From assembly GCA_015689735.1 (NCBI GenBank), contig WVSP01000002.1:124001-188000 (forward strand): DNA of 64,000 nt, given 5' to 3'. Shown here one piece after another: positions 16,780-32,462 of the stretch. The notes beneath the pieces are model-generated. The model did not search any database. It was not told the origin of the DNA and saw nothing but the letters and a program-made list of their open reading frames with translations. The translations under genes were made by a program, and so were the position numbers. The stretch comes from Rhodobacterales bacterium LSUCC0031. GTDB lineage: Bacteria > Pseudomonadota > Alphaproteobacteria > Rhodobacterales > Rhodobacteraceae. How positions within the stretch are numbered: the stretch's first letter is position 1; each line of letters opens with the position of its first letter.

Positions 16780-18171
16780 TCATGGTGTCAGCGCAGCAAT
16801 CTCGGTCAGACGCGCGCCCACATCCCTGTGCGAGCCAAAGCCATAGCGGCCCCAGCCAAGGCTGTCGAGGCGTACCTGCTGCGCCTCGGATGACCGTCCA
16901 AGCGCATCGAGTGCTTCGGCCCTGATCATCAACAAGGTTGACAAAAGCGCTGCATTCTCGGCCTGCATGGCCGCAGGTGTCGCCGCAGCGGTCAAGCGCA
17001 GCGCGTCATCAAAGCGGCCGGTGCTCAATGCAAAGGCGGCAAGTTGCATATCAATATGGGCGGTATGGATGCGCCCTGATGCCGTGCTGCCATAGATGTC
17101 ACGCGCCGTTAGAAACGCCTTGGCCGCTTGCTCTGGGTTCTCGGCCAGCGAAAGGCGGCCCAAGGCGAAATAGCTGAAGGCCAATCGTGCATCCGTCAGC
17201 CCGGCTTGGCGCGCGATCTCGACGGCTTGGGCAGCGGCGGGGCTGCGCCGCGCCTCCGGGGTGCCGGGACCAAGGGCTGTTTCGATCGCAGTGATCCATG
17301 CGCGCGGAGTTTCCGTGGCCTGAGCTGCGCCGCCTTGCGGGGCCGACGGGTTGATGCGCGCCAAGATTGCAGGCAGGGCCGCGGCCACTTCGTTGCGTGT
17401 CATGCCCGAGCGCAGCGCATCGTCGTAATAGGCGCGCAAGATCAACATGTCGAAGCCCGTCAGCACGGCGTTGAAATTGTCATCGTTGAAGACGCTGTCG
17501 GCCAAGCGATACAGGTCGTTCAACGGCCCCAGTGCTTGGGCCACTTCTTCATGGAGGCAATCGCGGATCTCTTGCGGTGCGACATCATTTGGAATGAAGA
17601 CCGCCACCTGTGTGCGCGTCTCCAATCGGGTCCAATCCATGATACGGCTGTTGCGATTGCGCCGAAACTCAGACCAACTCGACACGCCGGGGACAACGAA
17701 ACAGGCCGCTTGCGGCACGACGCGCTGCATCTGCACACGCGGCAAGGTTTCGATGGTGATATTTGCAGGCACCTCGCCATAGGCCGTACGGCGGATATCG
17801 ATACGTGCCTCCTGGCGTAGCCGCGCGATCAAGCGATCTAGATCAGAGAGGGCCGAGGCAGGCGCGCCGGGGGTGATGGTAACGCTGACTGGCCCTTCGA
17901 ACCGGGTCAGCCGCGGGATCGGGCGGCCCGACTCCATCATGAAGCTGAGTTCCAGAAAATCCTGTGCGGTCTGCGCGTTGGAACGCCCGGAAGGCAAGGG
18001 GCGGGGGGAGCCGAATTGCCTCATCGGCGGCATGACACCCAGCGCTTCAGGCGCCACCGATCGATTGGCGACATCATGCAAGCCCGGCGCAGCGGGCATG
18101 CACCCAGCCAGCAGCACAAGCAAAAAGGCGCAAAGCGGGGCAATCCTGTGGGTTGGCAAGCTGATGGTCAT
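16780..18171 (-). CDS. DUF2927-domain lipoprotein with C-terminal TPR-like region
   Basis: A 463-aa protein with a lipobox (LLAGC, C24). The DUF2927 core spans about residues 60-270 and contains CLHEEVAQALGP followed by SVFNDDNF and a hydrophobic GFDMLILRAYYDD block. The HE pair in a helix beginning HEEVAQ looks like half of a zinc-protease site, but no second HExxH His is evident. Residues about 320-440 look helical and repeat-like (AFSYFALGRLSLAENPEQAAKAFLTARD), possibly TPR. A second DUF2927 lipoprotein occurs at 28181-29116. Here it lies between a MoxR gene and a VWA gene. Function of the family is unknown. Confidence 0.85.
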   Translation of the reverse strand: MTISLPTHRIAPLCAFLLVLLAGCMPAAPGLHDVANRSVAPEALGVMPPMRQFGSPRPLPSGRSNAQTAQDFLELSFMMESGRPIPRLTRFEGPVSVTITPGAPASALSDLDRLIARLRQEARIDIRRTAYGEVPANITIETLPRVQMQRVVPQAACFVVPGVSSWSEFRRNRNSRIMDWTRLETRTQVAVFIPNDVAPQEIRDCLHEEVAQALGPLNDLYRLADSVFNDDNFNAVLTGFDMLILRAYYDDALRSGMTRNEVAAALPAILARINPSAPQGGAAQATETPRAWITAIETALGPGTPEARRSPAAAQAVEIARQAGLTDARLAFSYFALGRLSLAENPEQAAKAFLTARDIYGSTASGRIHTAHIDMQLAAFALSTGRFDDALRLTAAATPAAMQAENAALLSTLLMIRAEALDALGRSSEAQQVRLDSLGWGRYGFGSHRDVGARLTEIAALTP

Positions 18172-21257: not shown

Positions 21258-22001
21258 TCAATCCGTAAGCGAATAGGCCGGCAATCCGTCGAACGCGGCG
21301 CGCAAGGCTTCGCCCCAACCTGATGAGATCATCTCGTAGAATGCATCGTCGCGCGCGATCCGCCGGACCAACCCCGTCTGCAGACTATCCGTTTCATAAA
21401 GGTGAAGATCAAGCGGTAAGCCTACGGAAAGATTTGCCTTTATTGTGCTGTCAAAGCTCAGCATCAACAGCTTCACCGCCTCTTCAAAACGCATAGCCGG
21501 ATCATAGGCGCGCACCAAGATGGGTTTGCCGTATTTTGTCTCGCCGATCTGAAAAAACGGCGTATCGGTGCTGGCTTCCACGAAATTGCCCTCGGGATAG
21601 ACCATGAACAAGCGCGGCTCGCCGCCTTTGACCTGTCCGCCGAGGATCATCGTCGCTGAAAACGGGCTGTCGGCCTGTGGCCCTTCGCGGCGTGTCTGCT
21701 CGGCAATCACCTCGCGCAGTGTTTCACCCACAAGCTTGGCCACCTGGAACATTGACGGCGCCTCGAGGATCGAGGGCTGGCCACGTTCCTCGGCAGGCTT
21801 GGCGCGTTCGCTCAACAGCGATACCACCGCCTGCGTCGTGGCAAGATTGCCTGCCGTCATCACGGTGATCGACCGCTCACCAGGGCTTTCCCACATGAAC
21901 ATCTTTTTGAAAACGCTGATGTTATCGACACCTGCATTTGTGCGGGTATCCGACATGAACACCAAGCCGCGATCCAGCTTCAGCCCCACGCAATAGGTCA
22001 T
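21258..22001 (-). CDS. Anbu, proteasome-related peptidase
   Basis: A 247-aa Ntn-hydrolase of the Anbu family (ancestral beta-subunit). Removal of Met would expose Thr1 (TYCVGLKLDRG), with Asp17 (MSDTRTNAG) and a lysine pair at 31-32 in the usual proteasome active-site spacing. ATG at 22001 is preceded by GAGGGTGG; longer in-frame starts run back into the transglutaminase gene. It is the last gene of the four-gene module ATP-grasp, alpha-E, transglutaminase, Anbu, an arrangement known in many Proteobacteria and linked to making and breaking a peptide of unknown identity. Activity has been hard to show for the family. Confidence 0.92.
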   Translation of the reverse strand: MTYCVGLKLDRGLVFMSDTRTNAGVDNISVFKKMFMWESPGERSITVMTAGNLATTQAVVSLLSERAKPAEERGQPSILEAPSMFQVAKLVGETLREVIAEQTRREGPQADSPFSATMILGGQVKGGEPRLFMVYPEGNFVEASTDTPFFQIGETKYGKPILVRAYDPAMRFEEAVKLLMLSFDSTIKANLSVGLPLDLHLYETDSLQTGLVRRIARDDAFYEMISSGWGEALRAAFDGLPAYSLTD

Positions 22002-22029
22002 TTTTCCACCCTCAAGCCTTGCGCCTGTC

Positions 22030-22833
22030 CTACTGCTGCTGGACTTGGATGTCGATGGACATCGCCTCGCCGCCGCTGCCGAAGCGCAACCCGCTGATCG
22101 GTGCGGCCTCGCGATAATCAAGGCCGGTGGCCACCCGCACGTAGCGCGGATCAGGCGAAATGCCGTTTGACACATCAAACCCGACCCAGCCAAGCATATC
22201 AACATGTGCCTCGGCCCAGGCATGGCTGGCATCTTGATGCACACGGTCATCCATCATCAGGTAACCCGAGACATAGCGCGCGGGATATCCCAAAGCCCGC
22301 GCCGCCGCGACAAAGACATGCGCATGGTCTTGGCACACGCCCCCGCCATGTTCGAGCGCCTCCTCGGCGGTGGTCTCGGCATGGGTGAGGCCGATCTCGT
22401 AGGGGATCGCCGCGCGAATACGGGCCGAGAGGGCATGTAGCCTTGGCAGGTCTTCGGGTTCTTCTTCCTTCAACCCACGCACAAGCGCGCGCAATCGCGC
22501 ACCCGGACGGGTCAACTCTGTCTGGCTTTGGAAATACCACAAGGGCGCAAAGCCGCCATGCCGCCCCGTGACGCCCGCCATATCCGTGGTTTCCACCTCG
22601 CCCTCGCATGACAACATGATCGCCGTGGCACTTGGATCAAACGAGACGAGCGAAACATGGTTTTGATGATGATCGGTAAAGGATGTTTCGACCTGTCCTC
22701 CGTCGATCGTCATCGACCACTGCAAGACGGTCTGGCCGGTTCGGCTTTTTGGCACCAAACGCAACTGCTGTAGCCCATAGGCCATGGGGCGTTCAAACCG
22801 ATAGGTGGTGGTATGCAAGATCCTAAGTCGCAT
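22030..22833 (-). CDS. Transglutaminase-like cysteine peptidase (Anbu operon)
   Basis: A 267-aa protein with an N-terminal beta domain (residues 1-110, common to this subfamily) and a transglutaminase-like domain with the catalytic triad C167 (GGGVCQDHAHVF), H204 (DASHAWAEAH) and D220 (GFDVSNG). Such enzymes hydrolyse or transfer amide bonds. It is 5 bases after the alpha-E gene and 28 bases before anbu, on the same strand. Its partner ATP-grasp enzyme probably forms the bond that this enzyme processes (inference from conserved operon). Confidence 0.92.
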   Translation of the reverse strand: MRLRILHTTTYRFERPMAYGLQQLRLVPKSRTGQTVLQWSMTIDGGQVETSFTDHHQNHVSLVSFDPSATAIMLSCEGEVETTDMAGVTGRHGGFAPLWYFQSQTELTRPGARLRALVRGLKEEEPEDLPRLHALSARIRAAIPYEIGLTHAETTAEEALEHGGGVCQDHAHVFVAAARALGYPARYVSGYLMMDDRVHQDASHAWAEAHVDMLGWVGFDVSNGISPDPRYVRVATGLDYREAAPISGLRFGSGGEAMSIDIQVQQQ

Positions 22834-22838
22834 GCTGA

Positions 22839-23780
22839 TTACCCCAAGAACCTGTAATCGGCTTCGATCTGTTGGCCAAGCTTGCCCACATCCGCCAAGA
22901 AATCGGTGATGAATTCATGTAAACCATCCTCGAAAACGCGCTCGATCTTGCCATGCCGCAGCCGTGCGGAAAGCCCGTCGATCTGCGCGTGGCAAGGGTG
23001 GCGCGTCTGATAGGCCTGTTCGAGATAGGCCAAGTTCGTGGCAATCTTGCCCACAGAAAAGGCAAGGCTGCGCGGCATGCGCGTGTCAAAGATCAAGAAA
23101 TCCGCGATCCCCATCGGGCTTGTCTCGCCTTGCGTGATCCAGCGATAGGCGCGCATGCCTGCAACCGAGCGCAGGATGGTTTCCCACTGCACATTATCGA
23201 GGCTTGAGCCGATCTGACTGATCGAGGGCAGAAGCACATAGTATTTCACGTCCAAAATCCGCGCAGTGTTGTCGGCGCGTTCGAGGAATGTGCCAAGGCG
23301 GCAGAAATCGAAGATGTCATTCCTGAGCATCGTCCCGTGCATCGCACCCCTGACCAAGGCTGATTGCTGGCGGATCAGCGCCAGTACCTCGGGCAAATCG
23401 CGGGCCGAGACGGGGCGCGCGAGGGCCGCTTTCAGCACCATGTAGGTGTCGTTCACCGCTTCCCATACCTCGCGGGTGATGGCGGTGCGCACGAGGCGGG
23501 CGTTTTGGCGCGCCTGCGCGATGGCCGACATCACCGATGAGGGGTTGCCGGGATCGCGCAGCAGGAAATCGATGGCCTTGGCCGCTTCGATCTGACTATA
23601 CTTTTCGAAATAGAGATGGGCCACGGCGGCTGTTTGCAACACGCTCGTCCATTCGTCGTCATCGCCATCGGCGCGCGTGAGCGCGATGCGAAATCCCGTC
23701 TCGATCAGCCGCGCGGTGTTTTCCGAGCGCTCGAGATAGCGAAACATCCAGAACAGGCCGCCTGCGGTTTTTCCAAGCAT
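22839..23780 (-). CDS. Alpha-E domain protein (Anbu operon)
   Basis: A 313-aa, almost entirely helical protein of the alpha-E family, beginning MLGKTAGGLFWMFRYLERSE with further family landmarks NDTYMVLKAALARPVS and RGAMHGTMLRNDIFDFCRLG. The biochemical role is unknown; it is always found beside the circularly permuted ATP-grasp gene, here 4 bases away. It probably forms part of the peptide-synthesising complex. Confidence 0.92.
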   Translation of the reverse strand: MLGKTAGGLFWMFRYLERSENTARLIETGFRIALTRADGDDDEWTSVLQTAAVAHLYFEKYSQIEAAKAIDFLLRDPGNPSSVMSAIAQARQNARLVRTAITREVWEAVNDTYMVLKAALARPVSARDLPEVLALIRQQSALVRGAMHGTMLRNDIFDFCRLGTFLERADNTARILDVKYYVLLPSISQIGSSLDNVQWETILRSVAGMRAYRWITQGETSPMGIADFLIFDTRMPRSLAFSVGKIATNLAYLEQAYQTRHPCHAQIDGLSARLRHGKIERVFEDGLHEFITDFLADVGKLGQQIEADYRFLG

Positions 23781-23784
23781 CTCG

Positions 23785-25212
23785 CTATTCCTCCAGCACC
23801 CAAGTATCCTTGGTGCCGCCCCCTTGGCTGGAGTTCACCACGAGCGAGCCCTTTTTCAGGGCGACTCGCGTCAGCCCGCCGGGCGTAATCGTGATCTTGT
23901 CGGGCGCCACCAGAACGAAAGGGCGCAGATCGACATGGCGTGGTGCGAGCCCCGCTTGCGTCAGGATCGGCACGGTCGAGAGCGCGAGTGTGGGCTGGGC
24001 AATGTAATTGGCGGGTTTGGCCAAAAGCTTGGCCCGGAACGCCGCCAATTCTTTTTTCGAGGCGGCTGGCCCCACCAGCATCCCGTAACCGCCCGAGCCA
24101 TGCACCTCTTTGACCACCAGTTCCGAAAGGTGATCGAGCACATAGGCCAGCGCGTCGCCCTCCGAACAGCGCCATGTCGGCACGTTCTGAAGGATGGCTT
24201 TCTCGCCTGTGTAGAATTCGACGATATCGGGCATGTAGGAATAGATCGCCTTGTCATCGGCGATGCCCGTGCCGGGTGCGTTGGCGATGGTGATGCCGCC
24301 TGCGCGATAGACATCCATCACACCAGGCACACCCAACAGGCTATCGGGGCGGAAATTCATCGGGTCGAGGAAATCATCATCGACCCGGCGATAGAGCACA
24401 TCAATCGGCTTGTAGCCTTGGGTCGTGCGCATCTGAACCTTGCCGCCGGTGATGCGGATATCATGGCCTTCGACCAGTTCGACGCCCATCTGGTCGGCCA
24501 AAAACGCGTGCTCGAAATAGGCCGCGTTGTGAATGCCCGGCGTCAGCACCGCGACCGTGCAATCGGGTGAACAGTCGCGCGGCGCCGAAGCCGCAAGCGA
24601 GCGATGCAGATTGACCGGGTAATCCTGCACTGCTGCCACCTTGATGCGGGTGAACAACTCAGGGAACATCTGGAGCATGGTTTCGCGGTTTTCCAGCATG
24701 TAGCTGACACCACTTGGCGTGCGGGCGTTGTCTTCGAGGACGTAGAACTCATCCTCGCTTGTGCGCACCAGGTCGACGCCCACGATATGGGTATAGACCC
24801 CGCCGGGTGGGGCCATGCCGATCATCTGGGGTAGGAAGGCGGCATTCTTGGCGATAAGTTCGACAGGGATACGCCCTGCGCGCAAGATCTCTTGCCGGTG
24901 ATAGATGTCGTGCAGAAAGGCGTTGATCGCGCGCACGCGCTGCTCAATCCCGCGCGTCAGCCGCGCCCATTCGCGGCCTGCGATAATGCGCGGCACCAGA
25001 TCAAAGGGGATCAGCCGCTCATCGGCCTCGGCCTGCCCATAGACGTTGAAGGTGATACCCGTGCGACGGAAGAAGCGTTCCGCATCGGCGGATTTCTTGC
25101 GCAGATCGCGCAGGTCTTCGCCTTTGAACCACGTGTCGTAGCCGGTATAGGGCGCACGGGGCGCGCCATCGGGCTGCTGCATTTCGTCGAAGAAGCGGGG
25201 GGTGTCGCGCAT
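23785..25212 (-). CDS. Circularly permuted ATP-grasp type 2 protein (Anbu operon)
   Basis: A 475-aa protein of the permuted ATP-grasp family, with landmarks FFDEM near the start, TPSGVSYMLENRETM, LTPGIHNAAYFEHAFLA, the Mg/ATP region VKEVHGSGGYGM and the C-terminal SSQGGGTKDTWVL. Members ligate carboxylates to amines using ATP. ATG at 25212 (MRDTPRFFDEM) gives the standard N-terminus and length and has GGA nine bases upstream; longer starts at 25239 and 25296 were not preferred. It is the first gene of the Anbu module. Confidence 0.92.
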   Translation of the reverse strand: MRDTPRFFDEMQQPDGAPRAPYTGYDTWFKGEDLRDLRKKSADAERFFRRTGITFNVYGQAEADERLIPFDLVPRIIAGREWARLTRGIEQRVRAINAFLHDIYHRQEILRAGRIPVELIAKNAAFLPQMIGMAPPGGVYTHIVGVDLVRTSEDEFYVLEDNARTPSGVSYMLENRETMLQMFPELFTRIKVAAVQDYPVNLHRSLAASAPRDCSPDCTVAVLTPGIHNAAYFEHAFLADQMGVELVEGHDIRITGGKVQMRTTQGYKPIDVLYRRVDDDFLDPMNFRPDSLLGVPGVMDVYRAGGITIANAPGTGIADDKAIYSYMPDIVEFYTGEKAILQNVPTWRCSEGDALAYVLDHLSELVVKEVHGSGGYGMLVGPAASKKELAAFRAKLLAKPANYIAQPTLALSTVPILTQAGLAPRHVDLRPFVLVAPDKITITPGGLTRVALKKGSLVVNSSQGGGTKDTWVLEE

Positions 25213-25329
25213 GGTGTCCGTTTCGAAAAGTCTGACCATCACGGTGCAGACCGCGCGGCCAAGGGCCAGCGGATCGCATATGCCATTCGATCTCACCTTA
25301 CATTATCGCACAATCTTTGGGCGGTTTGC

Positions 25330-25767
25330 TTAAATTTCGATCCAAATTGTCACGGGACCATCATTGATCAGGCTGACCGCCATATCGGCGCCGAATTGGC
25401 CCGTCTCGACCTTGGGACCAAGGGCGGCCAAGGCTTGTGCGAAATGCCGGTAGAGTGCTTCGCCCGTCTCGGGCGGGGCGGCGGTGGAAAAGCCGGGGCG
25501 GTTGCCCGAGCGGGTATCTGCGGCCAGCGTGAACTGGCTGACCACAAGCGCGCTGCCGCCCATATCCAAAAGCGCGCGGTTCATCTTGCCCGCCTCGTCC
25601 TTGAAGATGCGCATCTTCGCGATCTTTGCTGCCAGAGCCTCGGCCTGTGCTGTCGTATCGTCCTGCATCGCGCAGACAAGGATCAACAGCCCCGGCCCGG
25701 TTTGGCCGATGATCTTGCCTGCCACGCGCACCTGTGCCTCGGTCACGCGCTGTACCAATGCCCGCAT
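25330..25767 (-). CDS. dtd: D-aminoacyl-tRNA deacylase
   Basis: A 145-aa protein with the Dtd signatures [15 protein letters not shown] and the cross-subunit motif [10 protein letters not shown]. It removes D-amino acids wrongly attached to tRNA and also clears glycine from tRNA-Ala. Start ATG at 25767 (MRALVQRV) is the family start and follows GAGGCGAGGG; an ATG 15 bases upstream is less likely. It lies 27 bases after the zinc-ribbon gene on the same strand. Confidence 0.95.
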
Positions 25768-25794
25768 ACCCTCGCCTCCCAATGCGGCGGCGCG

Positions 25795-26943
25795 CTAACG
25801 AAAGGCGCCGCTCTCATCCATTACGCCATAGAGGTAGCCCGCCGCGGCGATGACCACCAGCGCGGTCAGCACGGCCAGCGCGATCTTGATCCAAGACCAC
25901 GGGCGCTCGCCTTGCACCCGGCCGGTCTGGCCATTGACCACGAAGCGATAGGATTGACCGCGATACTTGTAGGCTGCAACCCAGATAGGCAGCAAGATAT
26001 GCTTGAAGGTGACATCATCGATGCGCACGCGCATCTCGTCGATCCGCTGGGCGTCGCCCCCGATATCGCGGCGGATATCCGCCCGGATCTGCGCCTCCAT
26101 CAGCGCCTTGGCCTCGTCAAAGCCTTCGTCGAGCGCGACCTGATAGCCCTCGGCGCGAAAGCCCGACAGGAACTCGGGCCGATAGCCGCGCAAGCCCGCA
26201 AGATCCCAAGGTGCCAGCCGGTCGGTGAGCCGCTTGGGCAGCGAGCGCGAGGCGAGGATCAAGATATCGTCAAAGGCGCGCGCCACCCGCCCCGAGGCGC
26301 GCCGCCAGCGGATGCGCCGCTCTTGGCGCGATTTGCCATCGGGGCCGCGCACGGTGACGTAGTAGGCATCGCCGCGCTGGCCGCGATATTGCGTGGCCGT
26401 ATCGGCGTCATAGGTCCAGAACGGCACATAGACCCCCTGCATCCGCCGCCCTTTGCGGGCATAAGCCTGAAGGCCGTTGGGCGCAAACCACAACCGCCCC
26501 AGCCAGTCATTCATCGCCTGGTGCGCCTGCCGTTCGGTCAGCTGAAAGGGGATCACGCCCTTGGGCTTGATATGGCGATGGGTGCCGGTATCGGCCACGA
26601 CCGGCGTCGCACAAAAAGGGCATTCCTTGGCGTGAAGGTCAGGGTGGAATTCGACCTGCGCGCCGCAGCCCTTGCAGGTGGTGACGCGCGTCTCCTCCAT
26701 CTCCTCGCGGGGGAGTTTCGCGGCGATCGCCGCCGCGTAATCCAATTCGATCAGCGCCGGTTCTTCGCGCGCCCATGGGCCATGCGCGGCCATGTCGATT
26801 GGGGCGCTATGGCCACAATGATCGCACAAAAGCCGCCCTTCGCTGGGTGCAAACCGCAAGTCAGAGCCGCATTTCGGGCAGGGAAAGCGCGCTTCCTCCA
26901 TCAGCGGTGTCTCGCTTGCCGCCATCCCGCGCTGATCCATCAT
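25795..26943 (-). CDS. Zinc-ribbon protein with C-terminal membrane helix (TFIIB-type ribbon)
   Basis: A 382-aa protein with two zinc knuckles: CPKCG/CDHCG at about residues 22-45 and CKGCG/CPFC at about residues 90-115. A central region (PFWTYDADTATQYRGQRGDAYYV) resembles a domain found in other zinc-ribbon membrane proteins, and the C-terminus has one helix (IKIALAVLTALVVIAAAGYLYGVM). ATG at 26943 or 26940 both have GAG upstream. It follows the SPFH-GYF gene and is probably membrane-tethered with the ribbons in the cytosol. Function unknown. Confidence 0.8.
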   Translation of the reverse strand: MMDQRGMAASETPLMEEARFPCPKCGSDLRFAPSEGRLLCDHCGHSAPIDMAAHGPWAREEPALIELDYAAAIAAKLPREEMEETRVTTCKGCGAQVEFHPDLHAKECPFCATPVVADTGTHRHIKPKGVIPFQLTERQAHQAMNDWLGRLWFAPNGLQAYARKGRRMQGVYVPFWTYDADTATQYRGQRGDAYYVTVRGPDGKSRQERRIRWRRASGRVARAFDDILILASRSLPKRLTDRLAPWDLAGLRGYRPEFLSGFRAEGYQVALDEGFDEAKALMEAQIRADIRRDIGGDAQRIDEMRVRIDDVTFKHILLPIWVAAYKYRGQSYRFVVNGQTGRVQGERPWSWIKIALAVLTALVVIAAAGYLYGVMDESGAFR

Positions 26944-27037
26944 CGCCACTCGTCCCGCTCGACCCATGGGAGGGGACCGCTCCCCCCCTTCATCTTTCCA
27001 AAAATACGCATGCGACCGCGCCGCACCAACCCATGGT

Positions 27038-28138
27038 TCAGTTTGGCGGCGGCGGCGGCGGCAGCACCGTGAACAGCTGGGCGAGTTCGGTCACATCGCC
27101 TGCGTGTTTCCAGCCATCTTGGCCCGCTGTCCAGACATGGCTCCGGCGGGTCAATTCGCCATTTGCGGCCATCCGCCCAAGTGCTGCCTTGGAAAAGGGG
27201 CCTTTGGTCTGTCCGTTCTCGGCGATATGCCAGACATGTTCGACCGGGGGCAGCGGGGGCGGCGCGGCAGCCGGGGCGGGGGCCATGGATTGCGCCAGCC
27301 CTTGGGCCATCGCCATGCCCATCCCCATGCCAAGACCCGCGCCCATGCCGCCATCGCCGGCCGGGTTGGAGGCTGCCAGCCGCATCGCCTCGGCGGTCTG
27401 GAACTGGGTGTATTTGCCCAGATCGCCCACCACCCCCATCGAGGTGCGCCGATCCAGCGCCTCTTCGACCGCGGCAGGTAGCGAGATGTTCTCGATATAA
27501 AGCTCTGGCAATTCCAACCCGTAGGCCGCGATGGTCGCCGATATGCGCGTGGCCAAAAGCTTGCCAAGCTCGGCGGTATTTGCCGCCATATCGAGCACCG
27601 GGATACCCGAAGACGCGATGATCTGGCTGAATTGCTGCACGATGATGTTGCGGATCTGATCGCTGACCTCGTCGGTGGTGAACTCACCATCGGTGCCGAC
27701 GATTTCGGTCATGAAACGGCCAGCATCGGCCACCTTGACCGAATAGGTACCAAAGGCGCGCAGCCGCGTTGGCCCGAATTCGGGATCGCGCAGCATGACC
27801 GGGTTCTTGGTGCCCCATTTGAGATTGGTAAACCGCGCGGTCGAGACAAAGTAAATCTCGGATTTGAAGGGCGAGGCAAAGCCGTGATCCCAATGCTGCA
27901 AGCTGGTCATGATCGGCATGTTGTTGGTCTCGAGCATGTAGAGACCTGGGGTAAAGACATCGGCCAGCCGCCCCTCATGGACGAACACGGCCATCTGCCC
28001 TTCACGCACCGTTAGCTTGGCGCCATACTTGATTTCATGGCCAAACCGCTCGAAGCGCCAGACCATCGTGTCGCGGGTGTCGTCGGTCCATGCGATGACA
28101 TCGATGAACTGGCCCTTGAGAAAATCCATGAACGGCAT
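27038..28138 (-). CDS. SPFH/Band-7 protein with C-terminal GYF_2 domain
   Basis: A 366-aa protein. Residues 1 to about 250 are an SPFH (virion-core-protein-like YdjI type) domain: FIDVIAWTDDTRDTMVW, GQMAVFVHEGRLADVFTPG. Residues about 255-300 are a Gly/Met/Ala/Pro-rich linker (GMGAGLGMGMGMAMAQG). Residues about 303-358 are a GYF_2 domain (WHIAENGQTKGPFSKAAL), a module that binds proline-rich peptides. The protein ends PPPPPPN, coded by a GGC triplet run at 27045-27062, which could be a ligand for its own GYF domain. ATG at 28138 follows AGGAGG. It sits between the DUF2927 and zinc-ribbon genes. Confidence 0.87.
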   Translation of the reverse strand: MPFMDFLKGQFIDVIAWTDDTRDTMVWRFERFGHEIKYGAKLTVREGQMAVFVHEGRLADVFTPGLYMLETNNMPIMTSLQHWDHGFASPFKSEIYFVSTARFTNLKWGTKNPVMLRDPEFGPTRLRAFGTYSVKVADAGRFMTEIVGTDGEFTTDEVSDQIRNIIVQQFSQIIASSGIPVLDMAANTAELGKLLATRISATIAAYGLELPELYIENISLPAAVEEALDRRTSMGVVGDLGKYTQFQTAEAMRLAASNPAGDGGMGAGLGMGMGMAMAQGLAQSMAPAPAAAPPPLPPVEHVWHIAENGQTKGPFSKAALGRMAANGELTRRSHVWTAGQDGWKHAGDVTELAQLFTVLPPPPPPN

Positions 28139-28180
28139 GGTCTGGTCCTCCTACTGATCGAAAAGCGGCGTGGCGGGGTG

Positions 28181-29116
28181 TCAGCTTGACCCAGCCATCA
28201 ATTCCTCGGCGATGGCGCGCACCACGGGGCGGGCGCGCTCGGGTGTCATCCCCGGCGTCAGGCGCGGGTCATACAAGATACGCAAGAGCAAGGCGTCATG
28301 CGGGGTCAGCAGGGCGAATTCCTCGTCGTCATTGAAGATCGAGGGGCGCGCGCGTGCGCTGTCATTGGGCAGGCCCAGCCCTTGGGCCACTTCCTCATGC
28401 ACGCAAGACCGCCGCAAAAGGTTGGGATGTTCGCTGCGGATGATCGCGACAGCCGTCACATAGACAGGCCGTGCGCCTGCTTCGGAAAAGGCAAAAACCG
28501 CGCAAAATGTCGCGCGCGGCATGGTTTCGATCTCATCGATGGTTTCTTGCCCGATCCCCGGCACGATGCTGCGCAAAAGCGATGCAGCGTTGCGCTGTTC
28601 GTCACGGTCGAGATAGAGCACATGGAAATTGCCGCCCTCAGGCACGGTGATCACAGGATGGCCGCTCGCGCGTGACAGAGCGCTTGCGTAGGTCGACAGC
28701 ACCGACAGATCTGCGGCTTTTTGGCTGTCATCGACCGAGGCACCGAAATGCGCCTGAAGTTGGACGGGCTTTTCCCAGCGCCGCAACTGCGACGGCGTTT
28801 CGCGCTGGATGAAACGCCCAGCCGATAGCACATATTCGTCGAAAAGCGCGATCCGTTCGAAATTGGTGGCAAGTGTCTCGGCGGTGAAGGGGGCATCGAC
28901 AAGCCCACCGTCGCTGCGCAGCAAGCCATCACTGACCAGCCGCGCCTCGACATTGGTGTAATAGCGCGCAAGTGCGGCACTTTCGGGGGATTGGGCAAAA
29001 CCCACCCCATCGCTTCGATCGGCGGGGGGCAAGTTTTGCGGCCCGGTCTGCATCATGCAGGCCGACAGCCCAAGGGCTACGGTGCATAACAGCAGAATTC
29101 GGGCCGGTTTGCGCAT
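28181..29116 (-). CDS. DUF2927-domain lipoprotein, shorter paralogue
   Basis: A 311-aa lipoprotein with lipobox LSAC (C20). The core matches the other DUF2927 protein of this window: SCVHEEVAQGLG followed by PSIFNDDEEFALLTPHDALLLRILYDPRLTPGM. It lacks the long helical C-terminal extension of its paralogue. It is 6 bases after telA and 42 bases before the SPFH-GYF gene, so it is part of the TelA-type cluster. It is predicted to sit outside the cytoplasmic membrane, while its neighbours are cytosolic or membrane-bound, which suggests an assembly that spans the membrane. Function unknown. Confidence 0.85.
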   Translation of the reverse strand: MRKPARILLLCTVALGLSACMMQTGPQNLPPADRSDGVGFAQSPESAALARYYTNVEARLVSDGLLRSDGGLVDAPFTAETLATNFERIALFDEYVLSAGRFIQRETPSQLRRWEKPVQLQAHFGASVDDSQKAADLSVLSTYASALSRASGHPVITVPEGGNFHVLYLDRDEQRNAASLLRSIVPGIGQETIDEIETMPRATFCAVFAFSEAGARPVYVTAVAIIRSEHPNLLRRSCVHEEVAQGLGLPNDSARARPSIFNDDEEFALLTPHDALLLRILYDPRLTPGMTPERARPVVRAIAEELMAGSS

Positions 29117-29122
29117 GTTTGA

Positions 29123-30307
29123 CTAGCCTGCCGTCGCGGGATCGGCGACAGTCTGGCTTGCTCGCGCCGAGGCCGCGCTGAGCGTATCGCGCAATTCGAT
29201 TTCCATCTTTTGCATCTCCTCCTCGGCGGCGGCGCGGCGGCGCTTGCCTTCATCTGCGATCTGCAACGACTCCTCGATGGTTGCGATCAATTCGGCATTG
29301 GCCGCCTTGACCGCGTCGATATCGAAAACGCCGCGCTCCATCTCTTCGCGCACGATGCGGTTACTGTCGCGCAGATTTGCGGCATTGCGGGTCAACAGCT
29401 CGTTGGTGAGATCGGAGGCCTCGCGCACCGCTTTTGCGGCTTCGGTCGAGCGTTGGATCGTTACGGCTTGGGCCAATTGGGTTTCCCACAGCGGCACGGT
29501 GTTGACCAAGGTCGAGTTGATCTTGGTGACAAGGCTCTTGTCGTTTTCCTGCACCAGCCGGATCGAGGGCAGCGATTGCATCGTCACCTGACGGGTCAGC
29601 TTGAGGTCATGGACTCGGCGTTCGAGATCGTCGCGCGCGGCGCGCAGATCGCGCAATTCCTGCGCCTTGAGGATTTGATCGGCCGCGGGGGCTGCATCGA
29701 CCTCGGCGGCCTTGGCGGGGATCGTTTCCTCATCGAGTTCACGCAGCTTTTCCTCGCCCGCCGCGATATAGAGCGCCAGCTCGTGATAGAAATCGAGCGT
29801 CTTTTCATAGAGCAGGTCAAGCGACTTGATATCCTTCATCAGCGCATGCTCGTGGCGGAGCAGGTTCTCGGTGATGCGGTCGATCTGGTCTTGGACCTGT
29901 TCGTATTTCGCGATGAAATTGTGAATGGGTTTGGCCTTGACAAACAGCCGCTCCCACCAGCTTTGCTTGCGGTTGGGGTCAAGCTCATCGACCGAAAAGC
30001 CGCGGATGGTGCCGACGATCTCGCGCAAGCTATCGCCTGCGGGGCCGACATCCTTGTTTTTCACACCTTGCAGCATGGCTTGGCTGATCTGTTGCAATTC
30101 GGCCTGCGCCGATGATCCGAAGCTGACGATGGAATTGGTGTCGCCCATGTTGATTTGCGCCATGCGCGCGCGGATCTGTTCGGCGGTTGGCGCATCGGCT
30201 TGTGGCAGCGGCACCAGATCGGCGGAAGGGTCGGGCAAGACCACGGCGTTGATTTCATCGATCATCTTGGCAGCGGCTTCGGCCTGTTGGCGGATCTCTG
30301 TGGTCAT
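29123..30307 (-). CDS. TelA-family toxic anion resistance protein
   Basis: A 394-aa, highly charged helical protein of the TelA/KlaA family (KQSWWERLFVKAKPIHNF, HEHALMKDIKSLDLLYEKTL, TQVAV-type coiled segments such as LNSTLVNTVPLWETQLAQ). The family was named for tellurite resistance but its mechanism is unknown; it often occurs with XpaC, as here, 9 bases away. It is cytosolic by prediction and is followed at once by a DUF2927 lipoprotein. Confidence 0.9.
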   Translation of the reverse strand: MTTEIRQQAEAAAKMIDEINAVVLPDPSADLVPLPQADAPTAEQIRARMAQINMGDTNSIVSFGSSAQAELQQISQAMLQGVKNKDVGPAGDSLREIVGTIRGFSVDELDPNRKQSWWERLFVKAKPIHNFIAKYEQVQDQIDRITENLLRHEHALMKDIKSLDLLYEKTLDFYHELALYIAAGEEKLRELDEETIPAKAAEVDAAPAADQILKAQELRDLRAARDDLERRVHDLKLTRQVTMQSLPSIRLVQENDKSLVTKINSTLVNTVPLWETQLAQAVTIQRSTEAAKAVREASDLTNELLTRNAANLRDSNRIVREEMERGVFDIDAVKAANAELIATIEESLQIADEGKRRRAAAEEEMQKMEIELRDTLSAASARASQTVADPATAG

Positions 30308-30316
30308 GGTCGGTCC

Positions 30317-31213
30317 TTATCCCTCGTTATGCAAGTTTTCACGGGTGAGGCGCGCGCGCAGCACCTCGGTTTCGATGTCGAAATTGGTGCGATCATCGCG
30401 CAAAAGCGCGGCGGTACGGCTGGCGAAATTCATGTCGAGATCATCGAGAAAGGCGATATAGTCGGCACGTGTCTGCGCGTCGCGGCTACGCGCGTAAAGA
30501 TCGACAAATTGCATGGTCGCATCGCGCGCGCCTTGCAAATAGACACCCAGATACCGCCGTGCGGCGGCCAGATCGCGCGGATCGGCCTCGACCTGCCGGA
30601 AAAGAGTGCGCACCGTCTCGCAAAAGCCCGTCACACGATGTTCCAGTTCGGTGTCGCGCGCGCGACCGATCGCTTCGCGCATCTGCGCGAGCAGCTTTTC
30701 GGCCTCGTCGATCTTGCGCGCGATGCGGTCGCTTTGCATGCGATCGACACCTGTCATCCCTTTGTCTCTGAGCGGATCAAGCCCAAATGCACCCAAATGC
30801 AGCGCCGCTGCGATCATCCCTGCCAAGACCGCGGGGATGATGACCCATTGGCCACCGAAGACCAAGAGCGCCACACCCGCCCCCATCGTCACAGCGCCAA
30901 AAATCTTGCGCGGAATGGCAGGGCGCCGGGCTAGCTTGCGCTCATCATAGGCGTCTTCGGCCCGCACACCGTCGCGCGTCAGCCATGCCGACAGCAATAG
31001 CGCGCCCATGCCAGCCAGATCGGTTGCCATCGCGGTCAACGGCTGGAAAAAGGCGCTCAGCAAAGGCAATAGCGCCAATCCAAATAGCAAGTTGAGCTTG
31101 GCGCCATGTCGGAGCGGTTTGCGGCCGCGAAAGCTGACCGGCGCGGGGCGCGGCTGTTGGCCTTGCGCATCGCGCGCGCCGGGGCTGAAGTCTCCACCGA
31201 ACCGCCGGGCCAT
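30317..31213 (-). CDS. XpaC-like membrane protein (5-bromo-4-chloroindolyl phosphate hydrolysis family)
   Basis: A 298-aa protein with a basic, proline-rich N-terminus, two helical hairpins (LNLLFGLALLPLLSAFF; TDLAGMGALLLSAWL; then FGAVTMGAGVALLVFGGQWVI) and a long helical cytosolic domain (QSDRIARKIDEAEKLLAQMREA). This matches XpaC-type proteins, the usual partners of TelA. The annotated hydrolase activity of the family is weakly founded. It starts 2 bases after the stop of a 29-aa membrane peptide and is followed by telA. Confidence 0.87.
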   Translation of the reverse strand: MARRFGGDFSPGARDAQGQQPRPAPVSFRGRKPLRHGAKLNLLFGLALLPLLSAFFQPLTAMATDLAGMGALLLSAWLTRDGVRAEDAYDERKLARRPAIPRKIFGAVTMGAGVALLVFGGQWVIIPAVLAGMIAAALHLGAFGLDPLRDKGMTGVDRMQSDRIARKIDEAEKLLAQMREAIGRARDTELEHRVTGFCETVRTLFRQVEADPRDLAAARRYLGVYLQGARDATMQFVDLYARSRDAQTRADYIAFLDDLDMNFASRTAALLRDDRTNFDIETEVLRARLTRENLHNEG

Positions 31214-31214
31214 C

Positions 31215-31304
31215 TTACATGGTACCCAAGCCGCCGAAGACGGCCATGATGACGACCATCATCAACGCGAAAAACGATACGCCCTGTAGAAATCCAGAAC
31301 TCAT
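31215..31304 (-). CDS. 29-aa single-helix membrane peptide
   Basis: A short frame encoding MSSGFLQGVSFFALMMVV followed by IMAVFGGLGTM, one transmembrane helix with glycine-rich ends. It lies immediately upstream of xpaC (stop at 31215-31217, xpaC ATG at 31213), on the same strand and in operon spacing. GGGG lies about eight bases before the ATG at 31304. Support is topology, spacing and codon use; there is no family match I can recall. It may be a small regulator of the TelA-XpaC complex. Confidence 0.5.
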   Translation of the reverse strand: MSSGFLQGVSFFALMMVVIMAVFGGLGTM

Positions 31305-31430: not shown

Positions 31431-32324
31431 TCACAAGGGCAACGCACCGCGAAGGCCGCGTTTTTTACCAGATTTGCGCATTTCTTGGCATAGCACGCGA
31501 TCCAGCTGGTCCAGGAAATCGGCCCTTTTGGGGTCCAGCACGGCCCGGTAAAGCGCAAACAGCCCCGGCCGTAGATAGCTTGACCAATGGCAGATCGGGG
31601 CGCTGGGCGCAGGCAGACGAATACCAAGGCGCCGCAAGGCCGAACGGCTTGAGCTGCGATCGATGAACAGGTCGCTCCACCCGGCTAGATCGGTCATGCC
31701 ACCTGAGAGCGCCCAATCACGCACTTGCGGTGCAGGCACAGCCAGCCGAAAGATCAGGTCAAACAGGGCGTTCGCATCGCTTGCGACGTTCAGAACGCGG
31801 GCGCTACGACCGGCAGGGCTACGCATCGCGGCACGTGCTTGGCTGCGGTACTCGGCCCCCGACAGCAGCAAAAGGTGGGAAACATCGCCTGCGCGCAGCC
31901 TGTGCAACGCCGCCAAGGCGACCCGCGCGCCCAGCGAATGGGCCATCACATTGACCGCCACATCAGGGCGGTGTGATCGGATCCGGGTGATAAGATCGGC
32001 CAAGACCGCGCCGATGACGAAGGCGCGCGCCGCGACGCGCCGCAAGGATCCGCGTGCAGGCCAGCCAAAGCCGATGCCAAGCCCGGCCCCGGCGCGGTTC
32101 AGATGCAAATGGCGCGGCCAGCTGATCGCCTTCCAGCATCCCGGATCGGGCGTATGCGACAAGATATGGCCATGCGGATCATGTCCGCTGATCCCCGGTG
32201 CAAAGCGGTAGCCATGGATCATGATCATGATCGAGCCATGCATGGGCAAAGCATCCAACGCAGCTGTCAGCGCCCCCGCATCATGCCATCCGCTGTCGGA
32301 TGCAGTGATGGAAATCAGCCCCAT
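31431..32324 (-). CDS. Alpha/beta hydrolase (DUF900-like)
   Basis: A 297-aa protein with strand IMIMIHGYRFAPG at the oxyanion position and nucleophile elbow NVMAHSLGARVAL (GxSxG variant with Ala first). Later motifs include LLLSGAEYRS. It resembles DUF900/esterase-like hydrolases; substrate unknown. ATG at 32324 (MGLISITASDSGWHD) is chosen because AGG precedes it and the fold begins there; starts at 32366 and 32414 lack a site. It is separated by 126 bases from the TelA cluster and may be transcribed separately. Confidence 0.78.
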   Translation of the reverse strand: MGLISITASDSGWHDAGALTAALDALPMHGSIMIMIHGYRFAPGISGHDPHGHILSHTPDPGCWKAISWPRHLHLNRAGAGLGIGFGWPARGSLRRVAARAFVIGAVLADLITRIRSHRPDVAVNVMAHSLGARVALAALHRLRAGDVSHLLLLSGAEYRSQARAAMRSPAGRSARVLNVASDANALFDLIFRLAVPAPQVRDWALSGGMTDLAGWSDLFIDRSSSRSALRRLGIRLPAPSAPICHWSSYLRPGLFALYRAVLDPKRADFLDQLDRVLCQEMRKSGKKRGLRGALPL

Positions 32325-32462
32325 GCCTGATGTCCTTGCCAGACCTTGGGCCTGCGATACGGTCATGGCGCAACATCTGCATGAAGGCTGCGCGACATTT
32401 CGATGACGGGTCACAAGCGATCAAGCCCGCTTGACGCGGGCGCGGCCAAAGCGTAGCCAACC

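Follow-up and report, generated by a model that had tools for sequence, protein, structure and literature searches.

Conserved linkage of XpaC-TelA, DUF2927, SPFH-GYF and zinc-ribbon genes in the Rhodobacteraceae, a candidate PspA-independent membrane-maintenance array

Introduction

TelA and XpaC owe their names to tellurite and to a dye phosphate, respectively, and to our knowledge both names have long stood without a mechanism. In a 64,000-nt stretch of the genome of Rhodobacterales bacterium LSUCC0031 (GCA_015689735.1, contig WVSP01000002.1, positions 124,001-188,000; this whole stretch is called the window below), the genes for these two proteins lie in an array of six genes that also encodes a micropeptide, a DUF2927 lipoprotein, an SPFH protein with a C-terminal GYF domain, and a double zinc-ribbon membrane protein. 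A preliminary description of the locus proposed that the six products form a membrane-stress or defense machine, and the question that it raises is whether these genes constitute one system, and of which kind. We consider it an evenly balanced proposition that the array specifies a single envelope-stress or membrane-maintenance system, independent of PspA, in which XpaC-TelA is joined to an SPFH/zinc-ribbon platform.

A literature search, with most subscription journals outside its scope, turned up, in the texts available to it, neither an account of the joined array nor one of DUF2927. The Band-7, TPM and zinc-ribbon contexts of the phage shock protein (PSP) response are covered in PMC11237479, from whose main text the word TelA is absent; nor was this word found in the main text of PMC9239133 and PMC10936438. 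The parts of the array are of known kinds, while their combination, the micropeptide, and the reading of the lipoprotein as a zinc-free metzincin are new to us.

Conservation and joint presence of the array

Gene order was compared in two overlapping samples of loci from the Rhodobacteraceae (the family, below). The first comprised 74 loci, namely the window, the TelA loci of the other 71 TelA-plus genomes among 80 family genomes (one per genus), and two extra family members; neighboring genes were sought in these loci with profiles seeded with the window proteins. The strict order XpaC-TelA-DUF2927-SPFH-zinc ribbon was present in 62 of the 74 loci, and because this order recurs across the family, we regard the array as a family-wide core and not an accident of one genome, and its arrangement as beyond chance. 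A random order in relatives, which the preliminary description had named as evidence against its proposal, was not seen. Among the other 12 loci, the run stops at the SPFH gene in four, three of them at a contig end; L006 (L and G are our own numbers for loci and genomes) is one of the four, and its genome has the zinc-ribbon gene on a separate contig. Two further loci hold only XpaC-TelA and two XpaC-TelA-DUF2927, in one case at a contig end, and one gene is lacking or doubled in each of L041, L045, L059 and L064. The second sample, 80 named loci in which gene order was taken by gene end, contained the five-gene order in 67, the full six-gene order in 63, and micropeptide-XpaC-TelA in 74; contig-end cuts account for 9 of the 13 loci without the five-gene order, and in two close relatives (L096, L098) an SPFH gene has no zinc-ribbon gene beside it. 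Ruegeria loci, L126 and L139 among them, carry the array. Outside the family, 17 loci were fetched and 16 counted (L090, which had no TelA match with the profile, was left out), and the array was seen in none of these 16 TelA-positive loci.

The genes are also present and absent together. TelA was found in 72 of the 80 family genomes, and exactly these 72, with none of the eight TelA-minus genomes, had strong matches to the SPFH domain Band_7_1 (E<1e-80); the Band_7_1 match of G059, one of the eight, was only 2e-6. The zinc-ribbon gene was present in 69 of the 72 TelA-plus genomes versus one of the eight TelA-minus genomes; DUF2927, which occurs in 76 of the 80 genomes and mostly in two copies each, was less informative. 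Four of the eight TelA-minus genomes look sound, namely G014, G029, G059 and the single-contig G045. In an rpoB tree that covered 66 of the 80 genomes, with the states for TelA, SPFH, zinc ribbon and PspA entered from genome searches, the six TelA-minus rows (three of them long-branched) require five changes. SPFH tracked TelA in all five independent pairs on this tree (p = 0.0625, the limit for five pairs), the zinc-ribbon gene tracked it in four pairs with no difference in one, and PspA showed no association with TelA.

In four genomes the run is broken within contigs, and its large genes are retained elsewhere. G018 has XpaC-TelA at one site and DUF2927-SPFH-zinc ribbon about 36 kb away, while G062 has micropeptide-XpaC-TelA-DUF2927 on one contig and SPFH-zinc ribbon followed by the D-Tyr-tRNA deacylase gene (Dtd) on a second. 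XpaC-TelA of G004 is accompanied by two DUF2927 genes 12 kb away on the opposite strand and by SPFH-zinc ribbon on a second contig, and G023 holds TelA-DUF2927-SPFH-zinc ribbon with micropeptide-XpaC 200 kb distant. A Paracoccus record carries TelA-DUF2927-SPFH-zinc ribbon without an adjacent XpaC or micropeptide gene. In a record of Paracoccus denitrificans, TelA and SPFH genes were found at 67 and 62 percent identity. Because gene order, joint presence and absence, and the retention of split modules all point the same way, we conclude that the genes of the array belong together, which bears out the earlier treatment of them as one set.

Layout and parts in the window

All six open reading frames (ORFs) were confirmed on the minus strand, in one direction from 31304 to 25795 (Table 1), as first described. 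They are separated by 1, 9, 6, 42 and 70 bases, the last gap being 94 bases if the zinc-ribbon protein begins at Met9. The assignment of the products as micropeptide, XpaC, TelA, DUF2927, SPFH-GYF and double zinc-ribbon proteins likewise agreed with the ORFs, with the Pfam matches (the domain scan covered the six array proteins and ten neighbors), and with the invariant cysteines. For the zinc-ribbon protein Pfam gives weak single-ribbon matches only; its residues C30, C33, C48, C51, C98, C101, C116 and C119 were invariant in an alignment of 24 rows. The proposed layout across cytosol, membrane and periplasm is consistent with hydropathy. TelA is a single-copy gene in this genome, and the closest named relatives in the scan were Roseicyclus (TelA 94% identical).

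Table 1. Positions in the window of the array genes, the degenerate motif and the adjoining gene (aa, amino acids)
Feature	Position	Strand	Remarks
Single-span membrane micropeptide, 29 aa	31304-31215	-	Conserved family; hydrophobic 5-23; TAA, one base, then XpaC ATG
XpaC-like membrane protein, 298 aa	31213-30317	-	PF10112 Halogen_Hydrol 2.5e-23; three hydrophobic segments above threshold
TelA, 394 aa	30307-29123	-	PF05816 4.1e-108; no hydrophobic segment above threshold
DUF2927 lipoprotein, 311 aa	29116-28181	-	PF11150 1.8e-59; predicted metzincin-like fold
Degenerate metzincin motif HEEVAQGLGLPND, DUF2927 residues 240-252	28361..28399	-	EExxQxxGxxN vs HExxHxxGxxH
SPFH protein with C-terminal GYF_2, 366 aa	28138-27038	-	Band_7_1 PF13421 1.8e-101; GYF_2 PF14237 3e-21; no hydrophobic segment above threshold
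Double zinc-ribbon membrane protein, 390 aa	26967-25795	-	Eight Cys; hydrophobic segment 362-380 (C-terminal)
D-Tyr-tRNA deacylase (Dtd)	25330..25782	-	Housekeeping enzyme; excluded from system

The micropeptide

The 29-aa ORF was evaluated in a held-out test, in which profiles made from half of the loci were run against all ORFs of the other half. The best match lay just before XpaC in 67 of the 74 loci, and 62 of these 67 on-site matches had E<0.01; two off-site matches below 0.01 (L050, L067) lay outside the marked stretch and may be the same gene. When the 61 of these 67 peptides that scored >20 and were no longer than 34 aa were aligned, Leu14 was invariant and Gly27 near-invariant, and the pooled proportion of nonsynonymous differences (pN) was 0.39 vs 0.65 for synonymous differences (pS), values that are uncorrected and come from non-independent pairs; in 71 close pairs, pN was 0.16 vs a pS of 0.63. 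The recovery of the site in held-out loci and a pN below pS argue that this ORF is not random. Relative to the stop of the micropeptide, the XpaC start falls at -4 to +5 bases in 66 of the 67 loci, and it overlaps that stop in 34 loci, one case at -8 included.

A genome-wide profile search (E<=0.003), in which 31 of the 72 TelA-plus genomes were also in the training rows, placed the micropeptide in 61 of the 72 TelA-plus genomes and in none of the eight TelA-minus genomes. Sixty of these 61 matches sit 1-2 kb upstream of TelA, and that of G023 precedes the relocated XpaC. The genome-wide search gave no micropeptide in G004 and G018 (G018 has a weak match before XpaC), and a few loci, such as L041, L099 and L106, yielded no such peptide. 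Its conservation, its tight coupling to XpaC and its relocation along with XpaC in one genome make it almost certain that the 29-aa ORF is a gene.

An AAGGAGG site followed by an 8-codon ORF (ATGATG...TGA) is located at 31327-31301 (-) of the window; its stop overlaps the micropeptide ATG, and it may be a leader.

Known relatives of the two modules and the PspA question

The PF10112 and PF05816 genes of the array are adjacent on the same strand, as in other XpaC-TelA pairs, and the SPFH gene is paired with that of a double zinc-ribbon membrane protein, a pairing shared with ydjFGHI-type PSP loci. Outside the family, SPFH-zinc ribbon and XpaC-TelA are mostly separate modules. SPFH-zinc-ribbon pairs without TelA were found in L173, L175, L176 and L177 and, with a weak zinc-ribbon match, in L179, and a Vibrio plasmid carries such a dyad in which the SPFH protein has the GYF architecture seen in the array. 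Conversely, TelA has XpaC, but no SPFH gene, in its vicinity in L076, L078-L080 and B. subtilis, whose genome was positive for PF13421 as a control.

In B. subtilis, PspA is carried to the membrane by the SPFH protein YdjI together with YdjG and YdjH, and there is no recruitment without YdjI; deletion of ydjG or ydjH removes PspA and YdjI foci, and YdjH makes the contact between PspA and YdjI (PMC8581546). The array is like the pspA-ydjGHI operon, an envelope-stress operon under SigW, in having an SPFH gene beside that of a double zinc-ribbon protein that bears a membrane segment, but it differs in containing XpaC-TelA, DUF2927 and the micropeptide, with no PspA match in the genome. Its SPFH protein carries a GYF domain, whereas the Bacillus counterpart is described with a C-terminal zinc ribbon in PMC11237479, and the likening of the pair to YdjG and YdjI is by description only. 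The XpaC-TelA half resembles the xpaC-yaaN (telA) pair of the Bacillota in its adjacent PF10112-PF05816 genes in the same order, and TelA is 36.5% identical to B. subtilis YaaN. That pair, however, sits between unrelated genes, whereas the array joins it to SPFH-GYF, zinc-ribbon and lipoprotein genes and to a preceding micropeptide, and the XpaC of the array is longer (298 vs 204 aa) and has a weaker Pfam match (2.5e-23 vs 7.7e-67).

No match to PspA/IM30 (PF04012) was found in the whole genome of LSUCC0031, in a search for which the E. coli, B. subtilis and Caulobacter controls were all positive, and PspA was above the cut-off in 16 of the 80 family genomes. The AlphaFold2 model of TelA was nearly all-helical with very long helices and was poor (predicted local distance difference test score, pLDDT, 72). 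A PspA/ESCRT-III fold for TelA was tried and was not supported: the best Foldseek match in the PDB had E 0.058, and the 50 listed matches were coiled-coil or helical-bundle structures, none of them PspA or ESCRT-III. Alpha-pore-forming toxin entries among the TelA matches (E 0.14 and worse) were taken as chance helical matches. When solved structures were searched by sequence, none of TelA, DUF2927 and the zinc-ribbon protein had a match of useful E-value, and SPFH-GYF had one weak match, of the GYF part to a gliding-motility protein.

An independent joining of an SPFH-family gene to XpaC-TelA was found in the 469-kb genome of Sinorhizobium phage Phosso (PV764938.1; L205 1885-6065 (+)), where YqiJ-like, flotillin, XpaC and TelA genes are consecutive. 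It is like the array in its consecutive one-strand SPFH-family, XpaC and TelA genes, and differs in having a flotillin with a YqiJ partner and not Band_7_1-GYF with a zinc-ribbon partner, in having no DUF2927 in the stretch, and in being phage-borne. The YqiJ and XpaC genes of Phosso are annotated as hypothetical. TelA relatives occurred in 50 of 50,697 phage records, all of them below 60 percent identity, and viral contigs yielded one confirmed relative at the search sensitivity used (L172, IMGVR_UViG_3300015360_000041), so that a phage origin was rejected, with no phage system seen here. The L172 relative adjoins PRTase_3 and HAD-hydrolase genes, a Ter-like set.

The DUF2927 lipoprotein

The DUF2927 protein has LSAC at residues 17-20 and a hydrophobic segment at 4-22, and a lipobox pattern is present in 69 of 78 orthologues. 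The preliminary description had called it an outer lipoprotein; the lipobox upholds the lipoprotein half of that name. Its AlphaFold2 model (pLDDT 88.7, from a 58-row alignment) gave 50 listed Foldseek matches against the PDB, of which 49 were matrix-metalloproteinase-type chains (one of them bacterial, karilysin) and one a Streptomyces zinc protease. The best of these had E 2.5e-3, probability 1.00, and template modeling (TM) scores of about 0.35 (query) and 0.6 (target); no listed match reached E<=0.001.

A helix at residues 232-246 of the model bears EExxQ and stops just before Gly248, and the zinc helix of metzincins likewise stops just before the Gly. E241, E242, Q245, G248, N251 and D252 are invariant in the 58 rows (and in a 24-row alignment), and the zinc motif of metzincin peptidases, HExxHxxGxxH, is absent from all 58: all three zinc-ligand positions are substituted (E241, Q245, N251), whereas the second Glu and the Gly remain. 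Smith-Waterman comparisons gave the C-terminal half a mean score of 34.0 against M10-type stretches (z 6.7), compared with a mean of 22.7 (sd 1.7, maximum 28.3 of 200) for column-shuffled controls and 24.3 for another DUF2927 region. This test used 15 of the 58 DUF2927 rows (every fourth) and five of 16 bacterial M10-type stretches chosen as matrixin-like, and its result is tilted toward a match because such stretches were picked. A profile-profile comparison of DUF2927 with metzincins, in which the DUF2927 rows were of low diversity, was not significant (probability 0.24 percent). DUF2927 is thus alike to the metzincins (matrixins, M10) in predicted fold and in the above-control local similarity of its C-terminal half, but differs from them by EExxQxxGxxN in place of the zinc ligands and by a modest Foldseek E. 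We consider a metzincin fold likely on the strength of the model, and catalysis unlikely; because the zinc ligands are replaced, the protein is probably no protease.

A second gene for a DUF2927 lipoprotein-like protein of 463 aa, with a weak TPR match and the same EExxQ motif, is located at 16780-18171 (-) of the window, beside two genes that we take to be of the MoxR-like AAA and VWA types.

Proposed function and alternatives

If the array encodes one envelope-stress or membrane-maintenance system, we infer a physical complex that would combine two older modules and two additions. XpaC in the membrane, the long helical cytosolic TelA, and the single-span micropeptide (27-30 aa), as a dedicated partner of XpaC, would make up one module, and SPFH-GYF with the double zinc-ribbon membrane protein, a pairing of the YdjI-YdjG kind, the other; to these would be added the periplasm-facing lipoprotein, with its metzincin-like fold and lost zinc ligands. 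As to the possible order of events, the zinc-ribbon protein would hold the SPFH scaffold at the inner membrane face, and the GYF domain would bind a proline-rich partner. XpaC and the micropeptide would recruit TelA, which may then build the sub-membrane structure that PspA forms elsewhere, and the lipoprotein, as a putative sensor, would bind a periplasmic peptide or wall component and pass on envelope damage. The fullest form of this scheme, in which TelA polymers do the work of PspA on the SPFH/zinc-ribbon platform, XpaC has the micropeptide as its small subunit, and the zinc-free metzincin is the periplasmic sensor of a complete one-family repair machine, seems to us unlikely.

The membrane-stress part of the preliminary description draws its support from homologues only. 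The xpaC-yaaN and pspA-ydjGHI genes of Bacillus both belong to the SigW regulon (PMC3498285). For Listeria, Lactococcus and Enterococcus, other reports link TelA/XpaC genes to the overproduction of membrane proteins or to bacteriocins, nisin among them (PMC12791056, PMC3139573, PMC8865564, PMC7864038, PMC10269926); the role of XpaC is called uncertain by the authors of PMC7864038.

Several observations weigh against a single PspA-independent system. A sign test with five pairs is unable to reach 0.05, and an assembly gap may partly explain joint absence: the universal rpoB domain was missed in 11 of the 80 genomes, and G022 and G033, two of the six TelA-minus rows on the tree, are incomplete genomes. 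Among non-family genomes, 13 had strong TelA matches and 12 strong SPFH matches (E<1e-50), with both in only 3. The genome-wide search gave no micropeptide for 11 of the 72 TelA-plus genomes, none was found in the Paracoccus stretch, and no TPM-domain (YdjH) protein was found among the six proteins and the ten scanned neighbors, the rest of the genome not having been searched. A replacement of PspA by TelA is without support from the fold, because the model is poor and no PspA/ESCRT-III match was listed. Moreover, 15 of the 16 PspA-bearing genomes carry TelA too, and TelA therefore at best stands in where PspA is missing, with no strict replacement.

That the array is instead a core operon whose genes serve two or three housekeeping functions independent of one another, with XpaC-TelA and SPFH-zinc ribbon co-expressed and no single assembly, we hold to be doubtful. 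Both modules stand alone elsewhere, as SPFH-zinc-ribbon dyads and as TelA-XpaC without SPFH, and Dtd and a sugar kinase are often within the same run. However, the joint absence of TelA and SPFH in five of five pairs, and the retention of both after the break in G018, G062 and G004, would be unexpected of unlinked functions. It is rather improbable that the genes serve quality control of membrane proteins or membrane lipids, in which SPFH-zinc ribbon would be a chaperone platform and XpaC-TelA would answer misassembled membrane proteins and not rupture. The transcriptome table of a paper on membrane-protein overproduction in L. lactis gives 10.3 for the xpaC-like gene and 3.44 for telA1, and Band-7 and TPM proteins have been proposed to be chaperone-like in PSP contexts (PMC11237479); yet the six include no protease or AAA ATPase, the metzincin-like lipoprotein is without zinc ligands, and quality control overlaps with the envelope-maintenance system that we propose.

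Resistance to tellurite or another toxic anion, perhaps as an outlier of the Ter system, appears very improbable, although it would fit the family name of TelA and the TerC gene found upstream in 18 of the 80 named loci. In Listeria, a mutant of telA is quoted as 2-fold more sensitive to tellurite, but the same mutant is quoted as 4-fold more sensitive to nisin. A Ter stress system would be expected to have TerC/TerD/TerB and PRTase/HAD enzymes with TelA, whereas no Ter-type protein, PRTase or HAD was found among the six proteins and ten scanned neighbors (the rest of the genome was not searched). The defense half of the preliminary description was not supported, and we give an anti-phage machine hardly any credence. 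TelA has been discussed as a sub-membrane Ter component of jumbo phages that could block entry, and the phage records with a TelA relative could be read in the same sense. None of the six proteins, however, matched PADLOC (E<=0.01), presence in 72 of the 80 family genomes in a mostly fixed order is unlike patchy defense islands, and a single TelA relative was confirmed in viral contigs at the sensitivity used.

By joint presence in one family, the array links TelA/XpaC to a pairing like the SPFH/zinc-ribbon one that docks PspA in Bacillus, and so gives TelA/XpaC a concrete, testable assignment. It also provides two leads, a conserved micropeptide family coupled to XpaC, and a lipoprotein family without assigned function that resembles the matrix-protease fold minus its zinc site.

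Upstream region and neighboring genes

In 18 of 65 family loci the micropeptide gene is preceded, at a distance of about 66 nt, by a conserved promoter-like element, TTCCCCCTAGCAAGC with CCTAAGTT-like letters about 15 nt later. The pattern, which was derived from these same loci, occurred 0 times after shuffling and before SPFH in 1 of 63 loci; it has no resemblance to the usual -35 box, and it was not found upstream of the array in the window at 4 mismatches. Known stress promoters were sought upstream in 65 of the 74 loci and rejected, with EcfG, RpoH, CtrA and sigma-70 patterns not enriched; in the same loci two short RpoE-like words were slightly above shuffles (6 vs 2.1 and 11 vs 2.8). 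A sigma-70 scan of the window gave 1 site vs 3.7 in shuffles.

Downstream, Dtd starts 12 bases after the array and is a same-direction neighbor in 46 of the 74 family loci. The same-direction run extends past Dtd into an ATP-grasp/Alpha-E/transglutaminase/proteasome-like set at 21258-25296 (-) of the window, which is presumably of the Anbu type. This cluster was rejected as a part of the system; it is adjacent in 3 of the 74 loci, and among the 80 named loci 7 have its ATP-grasp gene next in line. The upstream TerC-family gene mentioned above encodes a membrane protein, is a link to the Ter proteins, and runs in the same direction as XpaC (an example is L041 6995-7819), and its identity is given by a PF03741 match of 7.5e-35 for one member. 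Just upstream of the array, at 31431-32414 (-) of the window, lies an alpha/beta hydrolase-like gene with weak Tle3 and DUF900 matches, which is so placed only in the closest relatives.

The array is also present in L120 (JAFKDC010000001.1), with a TelA 75 percent identical to that of the window, in a record titled Enemella evansiae. Enemella evansiae is an actinobacterium, and the record is probably a mislabelled Rhodobacterales genome.

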